This document shows, one piece after another, positions 25,320 through 32,253 of a stretch of DNA of 55,176 nucleotides. A program made the translations under genes and the position numbers. The stretch's first letter is position 1; each line of letters starts with the position of its first letter. The DNA is from Varibaculum cambriense (GTDB lineage: Bacteria > Actinomycetota > Actinomycetes > Actinomycetales > Actinomycetaceae), in NCBI RefSeq assembly GCF_022133705.1, contig NZ_JAKNHJ010000017.1, positions 1 through 55,176 on the forward strand, given 5' to 3'. The notes beneath the pieces were generated by a model. The model saw only the letters and a list, made by a program, of their open reading frames with translations. It was not told where the DNA came from and did no database searches.

Positions 25320-26363
25320 ATGGCGCAGCGCAAAAGAGTTACGTTAAAAGATGTTGCACGAGAAACTGAGTTATCAATATCTTCAGTTTCGCTTGCATTG
25401 CGCAATGACTCGCGAATCTCCGAACCGGTGCGTGAACGGGTTAAGGAAGTTGCCCACCGTTTGGGGTATCAAGTGGATTTGTCGGGGGCGATGCTTCGCA
25501 GTTCTAAACCTAAGATAATTGGAATAGTTGCCCAGCTAGATCAAGAGTTACATAACAAATATGTCGAGAATATTAACCGTTGCGCCCAAGAAGCTGGCTA
25601 TCGTACGATCACTCAAAACGCTTCCCTATTTAATGATTATCGGCAGGGATTAGAGGCTCTGTCTCAGCTGCGGATTAACACTTGTGTAGCGATTAATCCT
25701 GTTTTTAGCGGTGAGGAACTCCCGGCAAACTTAACTCCCGCAGTAGTGGTGGGGCAAAGCGCTCTGGCGGGCGCTGACTTGGTGCGTTCTTCCAACTATA
25801 GCGGGCTGCATGAACTGGTTTTGCATCTAAAATCTTTAGGTCATGCAGAAATAACTTACTTGGATGGTCCAAAAAGCTATTCATCTAAAATTCGTCGCCA
25901 GGCATTAATGCGAGCTGGCGAGGAAGCGGGCTTAAAAGTCCATCCGATTTTGGCAGGTAACACTGTCGATGATGGCTTTAAAGTCGTGCAGCAACTTTTG
26001 ACTGATTCTTGGAGTTGCCAAAAATCTCGTAATGATTTAACCCGGGTTGCTTTATTGGGGGTCACCGCGCTGGCTTGTTATAACGATCAGGTGGCGCAGG
26101 GGGCTATGGTGGCTTTATATCGAGCTGGTTTTTCTATTCCCGCTGATATTTCGGTGAGCGGGTTCGATAACTCTCTGGGGGCGTCCTCCCTGGCTTTTAA
26201 TTTAACCACTGTGGATAGGGGGGCGGCGAAAGTTGCTGAGCACGTGACTTCGCTGGCGATTAGAAGAGCTTCCGGTCAGGTGGCAGCGGCGCAAGAGCTC
26301 ACTGTGGAGAGTTCTTTGGTAATTAGGCGCTCTACCGGTACAGCTTTCTTCCTGCAGAACTAG
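25320..26363 (+). CDS. LacI-family transcriptional regulator
   Basis: DNA-binding repressor (or activator) controlled by a small ligand. Residues ~5-50 form the LacI helix-turn-helix VTLKDVARETELSISSVSLALRNDSRISEPVRERV with hinge helix. The rest (IIGIVAQL..., VVVGQSAL, LGHAEITYLDGP, VSGFDNS) is the periplasmic-binding-protein-like sensor domain. The 347-residue length is typical. ATG with GTAGGAGGAC upstream. It stands 184 nt before the MFS gene, whose promoter carries a TCAAACGTTTGA palindrome, so that operon is the likely target. A weaker half-match TTGAACGTGAGA at 25277-25288 may allow autoregulation. Codon use looks slightly more AT-rich from here to 29554. Confidence 0.93.
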   Translation: MAQRKRVTLKDVARETELSISSVSLALRNDSRISEPVRERVKEVAHRLGYQVDLSGAMLRSSKPKIIGIVAQLDQELHNKYVENINRCAQEAGYRTITQNASLFNDYRQGLEALSQLRINTCVAINPVFSGEELPANLTPAVVVGQSALAGADLVRSSNYSGLHELVLHLKSLGHAEITYLDGPKSYSSKIRRQALMRAGEEAGLKVHPILAGNTVDDGFKVVQQLLTDSWSCQKSRNDLTRVALLGVTALACYNDQVAQGAMVALYRAGFSIPADISVSGFDNSLGASSLAFNLTTVDRGAAKVAEHVTSLAIRRASGQVAAAQELTVESSLVIRRSTGTAFFLQN

Positions 26364-26378
26364 GAGGGGAAAAGATAT

Positions 26379-26390
26379 TAAAACGTTAAA
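26379..26390. promoter_or_regulatory. upstream LacI-type operator (imperfect)
   Basis: TAAAACGTTAAA matches 9 of 12 positions of the perfect site at 26456-26467. Its centre is 77 bp upstream of that site, a distance that could allow DNA looping by a LacI-family protein. Confidence 0.45.
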
Positions 26391-26455
26391 GCAAAAAAAT
26401 CTAAAAATAGCGTTTTTGTACTCTTTTGGAAATTAAGACTGCTGATAAAACATAT

Positions 26456-26467
26456 TCAAACGTTTGA
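26456..26467. promoter_or_regulatory. LacI-family operator overlapping the MFS promoter
   Basis: TCAAACGTTTGA is a perfect 12-bp palindrome with the central CG typical of LacI/GalR-family operators. It overlaps the -35 box (TTGACT, 26464-26469), so binding should block transcription of the operon at 26548-29554. Confidence 0.75.
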
Positions 26468-26492
26468 CTTAATGTGAGGGATATTTTATTGT
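26464..26492 (+). promoter_or_regulatory. promoter of the MFS / PI-PLC / IMPase operon
   Basis: TTGACT (26464-26469) and TATTGT (26487-26492) are separated by 17 bp, a good sigma-70-type promoter about 50 bp before the MFS start codon. Confidence 0.65.
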
Positions 26493-26547
26493 ATGGCTAT
26501 GTGCTAAAGCACATCTAGGAATTATTTGCAGCAAAGGAGCTACGAAT

Positions 26548-27912
26548 ATGCGTTCAAAGTTGAATAACCTGGGATTCACGGCGACTTCATTCCTGTCGCT
26601 GGTGCTAATCACAGTAAATGCGCAGTTAATTTATGCTTTTTGGGACATTAGGAACACCATTCCCAAAGATTTTCCTACCGCCATGGGGGTAACCGACGCT
26701 CAGGCAGGGAACCTATATTCAATGCAAGGTTTAGTTATTATCCTGGGAACCATTGCCTTGGGCTGGGTAGGCGATCGTTTCGCGATTCGTACTATCATGC
26801 TGATTTCTTCTCTGGGTGCGGGAGGGATTTCCCTATTCATCACCGTATTCTCACCTAATCTCTCCCTGGGGACGCTGCTCGTATGCTTCTTCTTGATGCT
26901 GCTGTTTACCGAGGTATTATTCAAACCAGCCAACTTCAAAGCAGTTAGCCTCTCAACCACTGAAGAACATCAAGGCACTGCATTTGGCTTTTTCGAGTTT
27001 GGACGCGGTCTGCTCGCGTTCCTGGTTTCTTTGCTTTGGACCTTGATGCTGGCATCGGGAGCCAGTGCTCGAACCATCATGTACACTTCCTCGATAATCG
27101 TCCTGGTAGCCGGGCTAATGGTGTTCTGGGCGGTACCAAAAGGGCAAAAAGTCGGCAGTGAAGACACCCAAGCAGCTAACACTGTAGAGGCAATCAAAGG
27201 GGTTGGGAAAGTAGCTAAACTGCCGATAGTCTGGCTCACCGGTATCAACGTTTTTTGTATCTATGGCACTTTCGTAGCTGCCGGAACTTATTTTGCCCGC
27301 TTCTTACAAGCCGGATACGGAACTTCGGCAGTGGCTGCCGCCGTGTTTGCAACTACCGTAATCGGCTTGCGTATGTTGCCACTGGTTTCAACGATTCTGG
27401 TAGAAAAAGTATTTAAATCAACGGTAAAGTTCATGAGAACTATGGAGATAGTTCTGGTAGTTCTACTGTCGCTGATTGCGGCAATCTTCTTCACTAACAG
27501 CCCAGCTATCAGCTCTTATCCAGCTGGTCAAGTACCGGGGAACCTGATATCTAGTGGAATGTTCTGGGCGCTAATCGTGATGATGCTCTTGGCATCTGCC
27601 ACCACCTTTATGATTCGGGGTGTCTACTACGCTCCCATCGGAGAGTTCGGCATTGCCAAGAAGAATTCTTCAGCTGCTATGTCTTTCGCAATCACTGTCG
27701 GATATATCCCGGCGTTATTAGCCCCCATTGTGCTCGGTGGTCTGATTACCCCCTCCATTACTGATAGCAACGGAAAAGTAATAACCGAAGTGCTAACCTC
27801 CACCAATGTACTGGGGTCTGCATTCTTAGGATTGGCAGCTTTAGCTCTGGTTGCAGCGGTAATGTCACACCTCATGGTGAAAATGCAGCGCCGCCAAAAA
27901 CAAATGAACTGA
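26548..27912 (+). CDS. major facilitator superfamily transporter of a presumed phosphoinositol/inositol compound
   Basis: A 454-residue protein with about twelve membrane helices. The loop between helices 2 and 3 carries the MFS motif GWVGDRFAIRTIM. A conserved-looking RGVYYAPIGEFG segment lies near helix 10-11. General fold points to organic-anion or sugar-type MFS carriers; the substrate is not visible in the sequence. The strong AAAGGAG site precedes the ATG. It is the first gene of a three-gene operon (7 nt to the PI-PLC-like gene), directly behind the LacI-type operator. The context suggests uptake of a soluble phosphoinositol such as glycerophosphoinositol or an inositol phosphate, but that is inference. 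Confidence 0.85.
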   Translation: MRSKLNNLGFTATSFLSLVLITVNAQLIYAFWDIRNTIPKDFPTAMGVTDAQAGNLYSMQGLVIILGTIALGWVGDRFAIRTIMLISSLGAGGISLFITVFSPNLSLGTLLVCFFLMLLFTEVLFKPANFKAVSLSTTEEHQGTAFGFFEFGRGLLAFLVSLLWTLMLASGASARTIMYTSSIIVLVAGLMVFWAVPKGQKVGSEDTQAANTVEAIKGVGKVAKLPIVWLTGINVFCIYGTFVAAGTYFARFLQAGYGTSAVAAAVFATTVIGLRMLPLVSTILVEKVFKSTVKFMRTMEIVLVVLLSLIAAIFFTNSPAISSYPAGQVPGNLISSGMFWALIVMMLLASATTFMIRGVYYAPIGEFGIAKKNSSAAMSFAITVGYIPALLAPIVLGGLITPSITDSNGKVITEVLTSTNVLGSAFLGLAALALVAAVMSHLMVKMQRRQKQMN

Positions 27913-27919
27913 GGGCAAA

Positions 27920-28765
27920 ATGAAAGCAACTGTTAAACACGCAGATTGGATGGCTCATCATCCAGATTCAGTTCCCATCGGTAACCTGACTATCCCAGGA
28001 ACTCATGATTCTATGACCGCAACCTGTCCGCAAAGATACTATAAAACTCAGACTCTCCTGCTTGCAGAACAATTAGATATAGGGGTCAGGTTTTTAGATT
28101 TGCGGATTCGCTCTAGCCTGGTTGCAGCTCACCGCGAGTGGATAAGCACGATTAAAGCTACGGAGATATTGCAAACTATCCGAGAGTTTCTAAAGAATCA
28201 TCCACAAGAGTTCCTCTTGGTTAGATTCCAAAACGCAAATGAAAATAAGGATGATTTTCCGCAGTATTGCCAGCAAATTACGAAACTGATTGCTGAAAAT
28301 CGAGATTTATTCTTCCTATGGAAGAAAGAAAGTCAGATTCCCATCAGTGAGCTAACTTTGGGGCAGTTACGCGGAAAAATCCTGGCATTGGAATGTGCCC
28401 CCAGCCAGTATGAATCGACGTATTTACCAGACTGTGTTTGGGCATATCCCTGGCATGAAGCCGAGAAAATACGGCTACAAGACTTATGGGATGGTCCCAG
28501 TTTAGAAGCTAAACAGCAGGCAATCTTGCAACTAGGGGAACAGGCTGGAACTGGTGAGCTACGTTTGAATCATATTAGTGCTACCAATGGACAGTTAGGA
28601 TTCCCCGATGCCTATGCCGCTCAGCTAAATCCGTGGATTTTAGATATTTATACCAAGGACGAAGCTAGATGCAAGCAAAGGGCGCAGGTGCTAATTTTTG
28701 ACTATCTTACCCCTGAGATTGCTCAAACTTTGATAGATGCTGGGCTAAGTAACTGCCAGAACTAG
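27920..28765 (+). CDS. phosphatidylinositol-specific phospholipase C-like protein, apparently cytoplasmic
   Basis: The 281-residue protein has the PI-PLC X-box: IPGTHDSMT (His29, Asp30), FLDLRIR (Asp60, Arg62) and AAHREW (His71). These line up with the catalytic His32, Asp67, Arg69 and His82 of the Bacillus cereus enzyme, which cleaves the phosphodiester of phosphatidylinositol and then its cyclic phosphate product. Unlike secreted bacterial PI-PLCs, this one has no signal peptide: the N-terminus MKATVKHADWMAHHPDS is hydrophilic. It should therefore act inside the cell on an imported soluble substrate or on the inner membrane leaflet. GAGGG lies before the ATG, 7 nt after the MFS gene, and the next gene follows after 9 nt. 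Confidence 0.88.
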   Translation: MKATVKHADWMAHHPDSVPIGNLTIPGTHDSMTATCPQRYYKTQTLLLAEQLDIGVRFLDLRIRSSLVAAHREWISTIKATEILQTIREFLKNHPQEFLLVRFQNANENKDDFPQYCQQITKLIAENRDLFFLWKKESQIPISELTLGQLRGKILALECAPSQYESTYLPDCVWAYPWHEAEKIRLQDLWDGPSLEAKQQAILQLGEQAGTGELRLNHISATNGQLGFPDAYAAQLNPWILDIYTKDEARCKQRAQVLIFDYLTPEIAQTLIDAGLSNCQN

Positions 28766-28774
28766 GTGAGGAAC

Positions 28775-29554
28775 ATGGAAAAGCCGGAATTACTGAAACT
28801 ATTGGATTATGCAGTAGCTACCGTTAAAAAAGCCGCAGCTATGGCGCTTGAACCGGGAATGGAACTAAATATTACCGCTAAAAGCAGCCGTAATGATTTA
28901 GTTACCGATGTTGATAAAGAAATAGAGCAGTTTATTGCGAATCAACTACTGGAATTTAGTGGCTACCCAGTGCTCGGAGAGGAAGGACACCAGGTTGATT
29001 CTTTCGAGGGACGGGTATGGCTAGTAGATCCCATTGATGGGACGATGAATTACATAGAAACCAAGCGAGATTACGCAATTTCCTTGGCATTATGTGAAAA
29101 CGGAGTCCCGGTTCTGGCAGTAGTGCAAGATGTAGTGGCTGATAAGACCTATACCGCGACTTTAGGGGGAGGGGCTTATTGCAATGACCTTCCCTTAGGG
29201 GCGGTGAATTCGGATATAGATTACCGCCAGGTAGTTCTGCTAACCGATTTAAAGGAAATCCGAGCGCTTCCTCGCTTAGCTCAAGTTTTAGAGGAATCGC
29301 GGGGACATCGCCGATACGGTTCTGCCGCCTTAGAAATGGTGGAAGTAGCAGCCGGTAGGGCAGGGGGATTTATTCATCTTTGGGTATCCCCCTGGGATAT
29401 AGCAGCGGCGACTTTAATCTGTCGGGAAAGTGGATGCATAGTGTCCCGCTTTGATGGTACCAGCATGGATGTGCGCCAGAAAGGTTCCGTTTTGGCAGCA
29501 TGGCCTACCGTACATTCCGGGCTGCTATATCGGTTGGTGCAAGCTCCTGCCTAG
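28775..29554 (+). CDS. inositol monophosphatase family protein
   Basis: Magnesium-dependent phosphatase. The ATG at 28775 is chosen because GGTGAGG precedes it; an in-frame GTG three codons earlier abuts the previous stop. The 259-residue protein has the metal-binding signature GEEGHQ (Glu69, Glu70), WLVDPIDGTMNYI (Asp85, Asp88) and VSPWDIAAATLICRESGC. In context it is the natural last step, inositol phosphate to inositol, after a PI-PLC-type cleavage. Members of the family also include HisN (histidinol-phosphate phosphatase) and CysQ-type enzymes, so HisN is an alternative, though the gene is far from the his cluster. It is followed by a terminator. Confidence 0.9.
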   Translation: MEKPELLKLLDYAVATVKKAAAMALEPGMELNITAKSSRNDLVTDVDKEIEQFIANQLLEFSGYPVLGEEGHQVDSFEGRVWLVDPIDGTMNYIETKRDYAISLALCENGVPVLAVVQDVVADKTYTATLGGGAYCNDLPLGAVNSDIDYRQVVLLTDLKEIRALPRLAQVLEESRGHRRYGSAALEMVEVAAGRAGGFIHLWVSPWDIAAATLICRESGCIVSRFDGTSMDVRQKGSVLAAWPTVHSGLLYRLVQAPA

Positions 29555-29633
29555 CGGGTTAGCGCAGCCGAATGCCAGGATGAAACCTGGTGGTAAGGCA
29601 GCAGATTTGTCCTGGGAAAACCGGATAGAAAAA

Positions 29634-29674
29634 TAGTCGCGGGGTGGAAGAATCCTTCTTCCACCCCGCGACTA
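29634..29674. terminator. bidirectional terminator between the IMPase operon and glgP
   Basis: A perfect 19-bp stem, TAGTCGCGGGGTGGAAGAA, TCC loop and its reverse complement, sits between the two convergent units. A-rich and T-rich flanks are modest. Confidence 0.8.
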
Positions 29675-29712
29675 TTAGCTATTGACTTATCGCCAAGAAT
29701 CGGCTTCGGCAG

Positions 29713-32082
29713 CTAGATTTTTTGCGCCTGTATCTTCCAAACGTCTTTAGCGTAATCAGCTATGGTGCGATCAGCGCTGAAGCGTCCAGATTCACAGATG
29801 TTGATCCAGCATTTACGCGCCCATTCAATTTGGTCAGCGTATTCGAGGGCGGCGCGATCACGCACTTCCCGGTAATCAGCGAAATCACCCAGTACGTAGT
29901 AGACGTCCGCAGGTTCGTAGCCGTTGGAATCTAGTAGCGAACCCAAAAGATCATGGAACAGGCCAGTACCGCCATCATCTAAAGTGCCATCAACAAACGC
30001 ATCCAGAGTCCGTTTTAGTCCCGGCACGGTTTCATAGAGCTTGCGCGGATCGTAAGTGCGTCGCAGCTCCGGTAGTTCCTCTTCCTTGGCGCCGAAAATA
30101 TAGGCGTTTTCTTCCCCCACTGAATCCACGATCTCTACATTCGCACCGTCTAGAGTACCCAGGCAAAGTGCTCCATTCATCATGAACTTCATATTGGAAG
30201 TTCCCGATGCCTCTTTACCAGCAGTAGAAATCTGTTCGTGAATATCGGCAGCAGGAATAATATGTTCCGCCGGGGAAACATTGTAGTTTTCGACAAACAC
30301 TACTTGGATAACTTTAGAAACCTCAGGGTCACTAGCGACCAGTTCCCCAATAGTGTTAATCAGTTTAATAATCGCTTTGGCTCGCACATATCCGGGAGCA
30401 GCCTTAGCCCCGAAAATGAATACTCGATGTGGCCAAGGCTTTTGCGGATTATCTTTGATCCGGAAATACAGATCCAAAATATATAGCGCGTTTAACAGCT
30501 GCCGTTTGTATTCGTGCAACCGCTTGATCTGCACATCGAAAATCGCAGACGGATCAATCTTTTGTCCAGAGCGTTGCTCCAGCCACTGGGCAAAGTCCCG
30601 TTTATTATCGGCCTTTACCCCCAGTAGCTGCGCCATTAGATCCGAGTCATCAGCCAGCTTACGTAGGCTCTTGAGCTGATCCATATCGGTAACCCAATCA
30701 GTAGAACCCAGCTTTTCAGTAAGCAGGTTAGCTAGACGAGGATTACACTGTTTGAGCCAGCGCCGGGGCGTAACTCCATTAGTCTTGTTATTAAACTTTT
30801 GTGGCCAAATCTCGTACCAGTCTTTCAAGGTCTGCCGTTTAATGATTTCGGTGTGCAGGGCAGCCACCCCGTTAATCGAAAATGCTGCGTAGCAGGCAAT
30901 CCAAGCCATATGGATACGGCCACCATGAATCGGAGACATATAGTCAATCCGGGCAGCGTCAAAGCCCAGTGCCTCTAGTTCCATCCGGAAACGACGGTCA
31001 ATCTCGGCTACGATCTCCAGGATCCGGGGGAATAGGCGCTGGAAAATTGCGTATTCCCAGGTTTCTAGAGCTTCAGCGAGCACCGTGTGGTTGGTGTAGG
31101 CAAAAGTGTTCTGTACGATTTGCCAGGCATCTTCCCAATCCATCCCGTGATCGTCAAGCAGAATCCGCATCAATTCCGGAATCGCCAATACCGGGTGGGT
31201 GTCATTTAGCTGGATACAATTGTATTTCGCGAAATCACGCAGGTCATCACCGTGATGGTTGATGTAGTTCTCTACCATGTCCTGCAGAGAGGCAGATACA
31301 AAGAAGTACTGTTGACGTACCCGCAACACTTTGCCTTCGAAAGTAGTGTCATTGGGGTACAGAACCCGACACAGGTCAGCCACCCGTTCCCGCTCAATAA
31401 TAGCATCGGTGAACCGCTGCGAATTGAAAGCCTCATAGTCGAACTCTTCCATCGGTTCTGACTTCCACAGGCGCAAAGTATTTACGTTATCGGTGCCATA
31501 ACCGGTAATCGGCATATCGTAGGGAATCGCCCGCACTTGCATATCTGCGAAGTTAATAAAGCAGGGCTCTTCCTCGCGGCGAATAACGAAAGGATAACCT
31601 TCCTCCATCCACGGATCCGGATGCTCACGTTGGTTACCGTTTTCAAAGGCCTGCTTAAATAGGCCGTAGCGGTACAAGATTCCATATCCGCGCACTGGCA
31701 GGTTCATAGTGGCGCAAGAATCCAAGAAGCAGGCAGCTAGGCGTCCCAAGCCTCCATTACCGAGGGAGGCATCGTGTTCGGCTTCCAGAACGTCGGTGAG
31801 ATTCATGCCGAAGGTGTTTGTAGCTTCTTTCGCCTGTTCTAACAGTTCCAGGTTATCCAGGTTGTTGAGCAGGGCTCTGCCCATTAGGAACTCAGCCGAG
31901 AAGTAATGCTCTTGGCGTCCCGCGGCATACTTTTTTGTGGTTGCTTCCCAGTTTTCTGCGATACGTTCTACAATCGCTTGCGACATTCCTGTCCAAAACT
32001 CCATAGGGGTGGAGTCTTCGGCGCGGCGTCCAGAAATAGAACGAGTAAATGAACCTAAAGAATGGGTAAGGTTGTCTGCCAT
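29713..32082 (-). CDS. glgP: glycogen/maltodextrin phosphorylase
   Basis: Releases glucose 1-phosphate from alpha-1,4-glucans. The ATG at 32082 is chosen since AAGGAG ends 8 nt upstream (an in-frame TTG is two codons earlier); this gives 789 residues, normal for the family. Seen are EAEHDASLGNGGLGRLAACFLDS, the glucan region, KNNTNGVTPRRWL-like FNNKTNGVTPRRWL, IKRLHEYKRQLLNAL, and the PLP-lysine block GKEASGTSNMKFMMNGALCLGTLDGANVEI. It converges with the IMPase operon and is followed upstream (165 nt away) by an alpha-glucosidase on the same strand, a plausible glycogen/maltodextrin breakdown pair. The 165-nt gap shows nothing clear. Confidence 0.95.
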   Translation of the reverse strand: MADNLTHSLGSFTRSISGRRAEDSTPMEFWTGMSQAIVERIAENWEATTKKYAAGRQEHYFSAEFLMGRALLNNLDNLELLEQAKEATNTFGMNLTDVLEAEHDASLGNGGLGRLAACFLDSCATMNLPVRGYGILYRYGLFKQAFENGNQREHPDPWMEEGYPFVIRREEEPCFINFADMQVRAIPYDMPITGYGTDNVNTLRLWKSEPMEEFDYEAFNSQRFTDAIIERERVADLCRVLYPNDTTFEGKVLRVRQQYFFVSASLQDMVENYINHHGDDLRDFAKYNCIQLNDTHPVLAIPELMRILLDDHGMDWEDAWQIVQNTFAYTNHTVLAEALETWEYAIFQRLFPRILEIVAEIDRRFRMELEALGFDAARIDYMSPIHGGRIHMAWIACYAAFSINGVAALHTEIIKRQTLKDWYEIWPQKFNNKTNGVTPRRWLKQCNPRLANLLTEKLGSTDWVTDMDQLKSLRKLADDSDLMAQLLGVKADNKRDFAQWLEQRSGQKIDPSAIFDVQIKRLHEYKRQLLNALYILDLYFRIKDNPQKPWPHRVFIFGAKAAPGYVRAKAIIKLINTIGELVASDPEVSKVIQVVFVENYNVSPAEHIIPAADIHEQISTAGKEASGTSNMKFMMNGALCLGTLDGANVEIVDSVGEENAYIFGAKEEELPELRRTYDPRKLYETVPGLKRTLDAFVDGTLDDGGTGLFHDLLGSLLDSNGYEPADVYYVLGDFADYREVRDRAALEYADQIEWARKCWINICESGRFSADRTIADYAKDVWKIQAQKI

Positions 32083-32253
32083 ATTCAATCTCCTTACAAG
32101 GCTTACGATTCCAAGGCTATCGGTTAAAGGGAAAATGACCGACTTAAATCCACTATTTTGTCAGTGGCATTAGTTACACCGGTTTCATGCGGATAAATGG
32201 CCCGGTTTTCCCAGCTTTTCGGGGGAGTTGGCGCAGTTAAGTCCAGAAAACCC

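Follow-up and report, generated by a model that had tools for sequence, protein, structure and literature searches.

In the 55,176-nucleotide stretch of Varibaculum cambriense DNA analysed here (the window; it is contig C9 in a Varibaculum genome of 2.23 Mb), four forward-strand open reading frames encode, in this order, a LacI-family regulator, a carrier of the major facilitator superfamily (MFS), a protein resembling phosphatidylinositol-specific phospholipase C (PI-PLC; hereafter PLC for the locus protein) and an enzyme of the inositol monophosphatase (IMPase) family. We find that the conserved core of this locus is the MFS–PLC pair and not the MFS–PLC–IMPase trio, and that the pair recurs in 28 loci from three phyla, in Actinomycetaceae, Pasteurellaceae and Selenomonadaceae. 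On balance, we consider it probable that the four genes form a LacI-controlled salvage operon, which would import a soluble inositol phosphodiester, cleave it in the cytosol and deliver inositol to the iol pathway.

A carrier and a PI-PLC-like enzyme that occur together

The PLC was found in 20 of 213 Actinomycetaceae genomes, among them four of the six Varibaculum, and an MFS gene lies beside it in all 20: the window's own, 17 that are 66–99% identical to it and two (G106 and G110) at 32–34%. A scan of genome contigs with the PLC, which confirmed 9 loci out of 21 stretches, added Aggregatibacter kilianii, Histophilus somni, Mitsuokella and two Selenomonas. Searching by the MFS alone recovered 5 of 140 Pasteurellaceae and 3 of 189 Selenomonadaceae, with a PLC adjoining in eight of eight; five of these loci were already known through the PLC, so the independent test of adjacency is three out of three. 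Over all 28 loci, window included, the PLC-adjacent MFS reaches 64% identity or more with the window's in 26, and the other two carry the 32–34% relative. At E ≤ 1e-60, the MFS was present in 1 of 394 genomes of an Actinomycetes sample (the window's own, and none of the 393 others) and in 1 of 398 of a Bacillota sample (the centre genome, and none of the 397 others). No PLC relative was confirmed in viral contigs (five pattern matches, none confirmed), and no MFS relative was found on plasmids at E ≤ 1e-50.

Between the window and the other phyla, identity is far higher for the MFS (64–69%) than for the PLC (45–48%). Both trees place Pasteurellaceae with Selenomonadaceae (supports 100/100 and 95/95); the MFS tree nests the Selenomonadaceae among the Pasteurellaceae with strong support, and the PLC tree groups the Pasteurellaceae weakly (79/74). 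The pair thereby appears to have moved between phyla. Locus L046, with a PLC split over two frames in an 82%-complete genome, was excluded from alignment A1 and from both trees, and L044 and L045, which carry the distant MFS, from alignment A2 and the MFS tree. The split gene (L046 7581-8383, in the low-quality genome G125) may reflect decay or a sequencing error, as may a 135-residue IMPase-like remnant that adjoins an intact MFS–PLC pair in genome G650 (L090 9956-10363). A PLC 97% identical to the window's is present in a genome of the same genus (G005:C5), and another at 97% in a record titled Tissierella sp. Marseille-P2918 (L047, FQLW01000006.1), a title that looks wrong.

MFS carriers usually move small molecules, and the one encoded here belongs to an uncharacterised and very conserved subfamily: it is 65–99% identical to 25 homologues from the three phyla, with a mean column identity of 75%. 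Neither single-sequence nor profile searches of the PDB returned a solved relative. Among NCBIfam models only TIGR00897 (29 of 375 bits) and TIGR00886 (15 of 312 bits) responded, and the UhpT, GlpT and TIGR00881 models gave no match at E ≤ 0.1. In a fold search, SPNS2, sialin, DgoT and G6PT took the first ten places at 12–19% identity; naming a substrate from these matches was rejected, as they are too generic.

The PLC scores 21.8 bits against PI-PLC-X (PF00388), narrowly under the Pfam cut-off of 23.1, and its family assignment comes from other comparisons. With phmmer it matches the Listeria PI-PLC 1aod at E 3.8e-26, and when a profile built from its own family is used, the E-value for 1aod falls to 4.3e-53. 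Its AlphaFold model (predicted local distance difference test, pLDDT, 93.9) superposes on 1aod in Foldseek with a template modelling (TM) score of 0.84, and all 47 Foldseek matches at E ≤ 0.001 are bacterial or eukaryotic PI-PLCs, so that the model predicts the TIM-barrel fold of PI-PLCs. PI-PLC chemistry proceeds by attack of the inositol 2-hydroxyl, followed by ring opening. Residues H29, D30, D60, R62, H71 and D261 are invariant in all 27 aligned PLCs, the window's included, which agrees with a reading made earlier from the sequence alone (the sequence-only reading), where His29, Asp60, Arg62 and His71 were described as intact. We take H29, D30, R62, H71 and D261 to be the counterparts of the Bacillus cereus PI-PLC catalytic residues H32, D33, R69, H82 and D274 (B. 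cereus numbering). Asp188, aligned with B. cereus Asp198, is invariant as well, and the branch carries a signature of its own, QNANExKDD.

Bacterial PI-PLC is known as a secreted enzyme. An in-frame stop lies four codons before the ATG of the window's PLC, and because the upstream frame is closed there, no signal peptide has been overlooked; its absence had already been claimed from the sequence alone. From this reading frame the enzyme is predicted to be cytoplasmic. In 14 of the 28 loci the stop-to-homology spacing is merely 2–13 codons, which leaves no room for a signal peptide. The other 14 have an upstream open frame of 18–637 codons, in which the stop test does not fix the start; when up to 60 residues of each were viewed, a single hydrophobic run appeared, about 45–50 codons upstream in the 637-codon frame of L044, and its close relative L045 has 25 upstream codons and no such run.

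Operator, partner genes and inositol catabolism

The matches of the regulator to Peripla_BP_3 and LacI, of the carrier to MFS_1 and of the phosphatase to Inositol_P all exceed the Pfam cut-offs (Table 1). The MFS and PLC genes are separated by 7 nucleotides, and the PLC and IMPase genes by 9 from the ATG at 28775, which GAGG precedes, or by none from the GTG at 28766; the compact spacing behind LacI put forward by the sequence-only reading (7–9 nucleotides) is thereby confirmed for the ATG start. A LacI homologue is present in 16 of the 20 Actinomycetaceae MFS–PLC loci.

Table 1 Coordinates of the operon and its control elements in the window
Feature	Position	Strand	Basis or remark
LacI-family regulator, 347 aa	25320..26363	+	Pfam LacI 39 bits, Peripla_BP_3 84 bits
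Operator ATTCAAACGTTTGACTT	26454..26470		palindromic core TCAAACGTTTGA at 26456-26467
Possible promoter TTGACT-17-TATTGT, weak	26464..26492	+	overlaps operator
MFS transporter, 454 aa	26548..27912	+	MFS_1 (PF07690) 65.1 bits, cut-off 33.4
Predicted cytoplasmic PI-PLC-like phosphodiesterase, 281 aa	27920..28765	+	1aod homology, model, invariant catalytic residues
IMPase-family phosphatase, 259 aa from ATG	28775..29554	+	Inositol_P (PF00459) 183.2 bits, cut-off 27; GTG start possible at 28766
20-bp hairpin between convergent operons	29632..29676	-	T-run on minus strand

The LacI-type operator ATTCAAACGTTTGACTT overlaps a -35-like box (TTGACT, 26464-26469), as had been proposed, and is found without any base change in all four operon-bearing Varibaculum species. 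The region has no more promoter-like matches than chance would give (4 found against 5.8 expected), and the candidate promoter therefore draws its support only from the conserved operator. Allowing one mismatch within 400 bases upstream, the core TCAAACGTTTGA precedes 12 of the 20 Actinomycetaceae MFS genes; within the same distance it precedes 7 of 21 UhpT genes at up to one mismatch and 15 of 21 at up to two, and it was found before none of the eight MFS genes from the other two phyla (≤1 mismatch, 400 bases). A reversed control pattern occurred in 0 of 49 loci at up to one mismatch and in 1 of 49 at up to two, and base-shuffled controls averaged 0.01–0.02 loci per set. Genome-wide counts of the operator 13-mer were uninformative, with the backwards control equal or higher in each genome at up to one mismatch (6 versus 3 in the window's own genome), and the evidence for the operator thus rests on its position. 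A second AACGTT core (26382-26387), about 76 bases upstream of the operator and identical across the four Varibaculum species, is possibly a second operator for looping.

The claim of a strong terminator at the end of the operon stands in part. The 20-bp hairpin is real; its T-run lies on the minus strand only and the plus strand was not called as a terminator, and therefore it would be the intrinsic terminator of the convergent minus-strand gene at 29713-32088 and, for the LacI–MFS–PLC–IMPase operon, at best a T-less hairpin. On the other flank, four Varibaculum have a NagB-like gene oriented divergently from LacI; it was rejected as a member of the system, since it lies beside the operon in Varibaculum only and in none of the 24 other loci as fetched.

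The sequence-only reading had treated MFS, PLC and IMPase as a trio to be sought across relatives, and this did not hold: over the 28 loci the partner is an IMPase in 12, a PfkB kinase in eight and neither in eight, and never both. The window's IMPase has an IMPase as its best solved relative (3t0j, E 2.4e-39) and reaches no NCBIfam equivalog cut-off. The locus IMPases fall into nine from Actinomycetaceae at 57–100% identity to the window's (window included; the others 57–98%) and three from Pasteurellaceae at about 30%, and the phosphatase joins the pair in these two unrelated settings. In the three Pasteurellaceae loci the order is IMPase, a GlpT/PgtP-like carrier, then MFS and PLC; the Selenomonadaceae clusters also contain such a carrier. 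The PfkB gene is diverged and lies between MFS and PLC (L043 6621-7583, 42 bits, and seven further Actinomycetaceae loci of group g4); two scanned copies matched no NCBIfam model at 1e-10. Downstream of the PLC in three Selenomonadaceae loci stands a protein of about 970 residues (L054 8822-11725, with homologues in L051 and L053), which combines calcineurin-like phosphoesterase and Laminin_G domains in L054 and might supply soluble substrate outside the cell.

Related phosphatases occur in sister operons that lack the PLC. Searching with the IMPase family gave 50 close matches (E ≤ 1e-60) in 49 of 213 Actinomycetaceae genomes, nine of them in PLC loci. In one Varibaculum (G004) without PLC and MFS, the same operator is present, and LacI, a UhpT carrier (684.6 bits, equivalog cut-off 497) and an IMPase 64% identical to the window's adjoin it (L096 7718-11146). 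We read 21 of the 41 PLC-less matches, G004 and 20 from the higher scores, and UhpT adjoins the IMPase in all 21, with a LacI present in 20 (L096, L128-L147); of the 20 unread, three are at 55–59% identity and 17 at 47–52%. Because the IMPase keeps company with UhpT where the PLC is absent, we group this phosphatase with phosphate-ester importers. A PLC that appears when the importer is the other MFS is what would be expected if UhpT brings in a monoester and the MFS a diester, which suggests two import modules converging on the IMPase.

Inositol catabolism genes directly adjoin the pair in three loci; in three more, all of Selenomonadaceae, they are 9–15 kb away. In G152 the adjacent genes include iolD (863 bits), iolB (308) and iolG (386), all over cut-off, and an iolE-like gene under it. 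Histophilus has iolB (341 bits) and methylmalonate-semialdehyde dehydrogenase (661), both over cut-off, with a Gfo/Idh/MocA enzyme and a sugar ABC importer under their equivalog cut-offs, and Aggregatibacter has an iolC–aldolase fusion (892 of 600 bits) and homologues of the Histophilus neighbours. Among the Selenomonadaceae, L087 holds iolC (405 bits), iolD (947) and iolE (426), all over cut-off; homologues of its iolC and iolE occur in L085, and of its iolC in L086. The window's own genome encodes, on another contig (L079), iolB (292 bits, cut-off 205), iolC (357, 300) and iolD (877, 715). No iolE or iolG was found among the scanned proteins of that 20-kb stretch, and neither was sought elsewhere in the genome. 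An operator link to this iol cluster was considered and rejected, as no operator site occurs in L079. Degradation of myo-inositol has been predicted for V. cambriense in a genome study (PMC4177395), and together with the iol cluster this favours one use named by the sequence-only reading, inositol as a carbon source.

What the operon may do, and what else it could be

In the proposed pathway, the MFS would import a soluble inositol phosphodiester, most likely glycerophosphoinositol from deacylated host phosphatidylinositol; the cytoplasmic PLC would cleave it through a cyclic intermediate, giving glycerol and inositol 1-phosphate; from the latter the IMPase-family enzyme would release myo-inositol; and the iol pathway, whose genes lie elsewhere in the genome, would degrade it. 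Substrate, direction of transport and reaction products, as well as the role and effector of LacI, are inferred. The named carriers of the pair are bacteria that we take to be host-associated. Given this setting, and because glycerophosphoinositol is described as ubiquitous and diffusible in eukaryotic cells and as able to be released outside them (PMC3725514), it is the best candidate substrate. Uptake and internal cleavage of a phosphoinositol compound, as the sequence-only reading had it, thus gains from the pair in three phyla, the iol genes in six loci and the lack of signal-peptide room in 14 of 28; its choice of glycerophosphoinositol is left unproven by sequence.

Several observations weigh against this pathway. 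The positions of B. cereus Lys115 and Glu117, which we take to be inositol contacts, are Gln104 and Ala106 in all 27 aligned PLCs, and the ligand pocket therefore differs from that of the B. cereus enzyme. The IMPase is absent from 16 of the 28 loci, eight of them with a PfkB kinase that the scheme leaves unexplained; this kinase and the altered pocket are the main loose ends. The UhpT of the sister operons scores as an equivalog of hexose-6-phosphate antiporters, and another sugar phosphate may therefore be what the IMPase acts on. Furthermore, the MFS model is of moderate confidence (pLDDT 72) with generic fold matches, and the scanned GlpT/PgtP-like carriers score under every curated cut-off. 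Inositol synthase (PF01658, for which the positive control Corynebacterium glutamicum matched) was not detected in any of six Varibaculum, five Pasteurellaceae carriers or three Selenomonadaceae carriers, a point in favour of the pathway; PF07994 had given 0 of 27 but missed C. glutamicum and was replaced. The six Varibaculum include two without the PLC, and PF04962 (IolB/KduI) is present in all 27 genomes tested, those two among them, so neither trait tracks the operon within the genus. The synthase is present in 6 of 30 genomes, and all six are PLC carriers.

The altered pocket bears on more than one alternative. It could favour ring opening, a half-reaction that PI-PLCs perform, and with its catalytic residues intact the PLC might act solely as a cyclic phosphodiesterase ahead of the IMPase, on inositol 1,2-cyclic phosphate made by neighbours' secreted PI-PLCs or by host enzymes. 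We regard this as unlikely: hosts probably contain less of the cyclic inositol phosphates than of glycerophosphoinositol, and no sequence feature favours the cyclic phosphate over a diester. The same pocket residues, invariantly unlike those of solved PI-PLCs, could instead fit a substituted inositol, such as a glucosaminyl- or mannosyl-inositol phosphate head group, and the NagB-like gene beside LacI in four Varibaculum would suit such a larger diester. The restriction of that gene to Varibaculum and the usual preference of MFS carriers for small molecules make this rather improbable in our view.

A more radical departure would be that the PLC no longer acts on inositol compounds and cleaves a different phosphodiester, with IMPase and UhpT acting on another sugar phosphate. 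Loss of the Lys115 and Glu117 equivalents throughout the family, the pairing of a UhpT equivalog with the same IMPase and the PfkB kinase in eight loci all point that way; set against them are the closeness of iol genes to the pair in three phyla and the invariance of Asp188 and every catalytic residue, and we hold it to be improbable. The enzyme could also turn over the cell's own phosphatidylinositol, the inner leaflet being within reach of a cytoplasmic enzyme, with the MFS exporting a product. This we consider highly improbable, as the pair occurs in Pasteurellaceae and Selenomonadaceae in which inositol synthase was detected in none of eight, catabolic iol genes lie nearby and its LacI-type operator recurs in UhpT operons.

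Relation to known systems and significance

The proposed salvage operon varies known parts (PI-PLC, MFS, IMPase and LacI) in a new way and does not represent a system of a new kind. With the secreted PI-PLCs of Listeria, B. cereus/thuringiensis and Staphylococcus aureus (1aod, 1ptd, 3v16), its PLC has the fold and the catalytic His, Asp and Arg residues in common; unlike them, it lacks a signal peptide, is partnered by an importer and a regulator, and has the Gln/Ala replacement and its own signature. UhpT shares the IMPase subfamily and the operator in relatives, and a GlpT/PgtP-like carrier accompanies the pair in Pasteurellaceae, whereas the window's MFS matches neither antiporter family. 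Yeast Git1 and mammalian Glut2 are MFS-type carriers. Both transport the proposed substrate, glycerophosphoinositol (PMC3725514), and the window's MFS is without a solved sequence relative. The overall reaction proposed here, from glycerophosphoinositol to inositol phosphate and glycerol, is that described for GDE3 (PMC3725514). GDE3, a glycerophosphodiesterase, acts as a membrane ectoenzyme, whereas the window's enzyme would be cytosolic with a PI-PLC fold. Known iol clusters import free inositol. The iol pathway is the destination of the proposed product, and in six loci its genes adjoin the pair or are no more than about 15 kb from it; the main text of a survey of such clusters (PMC9430895) uses none of the words phospholipase, phosphatase and glycerophospho.

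Among the matches listed, the open-access literature yielded no description of a bacterial glycerophosphoinositol operon or of this gene set as one system, in keeping with the sequence-only reading. It is conceivable, although we lean slightly against so full a claim, that the mobile pair of a new MFS family and a cytosolic PI-PLC is the first described bacterial route for taking up intact glycerophosphoinositol into inositol catabolism, spread over three phyla of host-associated bacteria and parallel to a UhpT–IMPase module that handles inositol monophosphates and has a related LacI operator.

If the salvage operon works as proposed, the importer-tied cytoplasmic branch would give PI-PLC a nutritional role, and a substrate would be named for an uncharacterised, highly conserved carrier. 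Host-associated bacteria would then compete for deacylated inositol lipids, compounds that serve mammalian cells as signals (PMC3725514).

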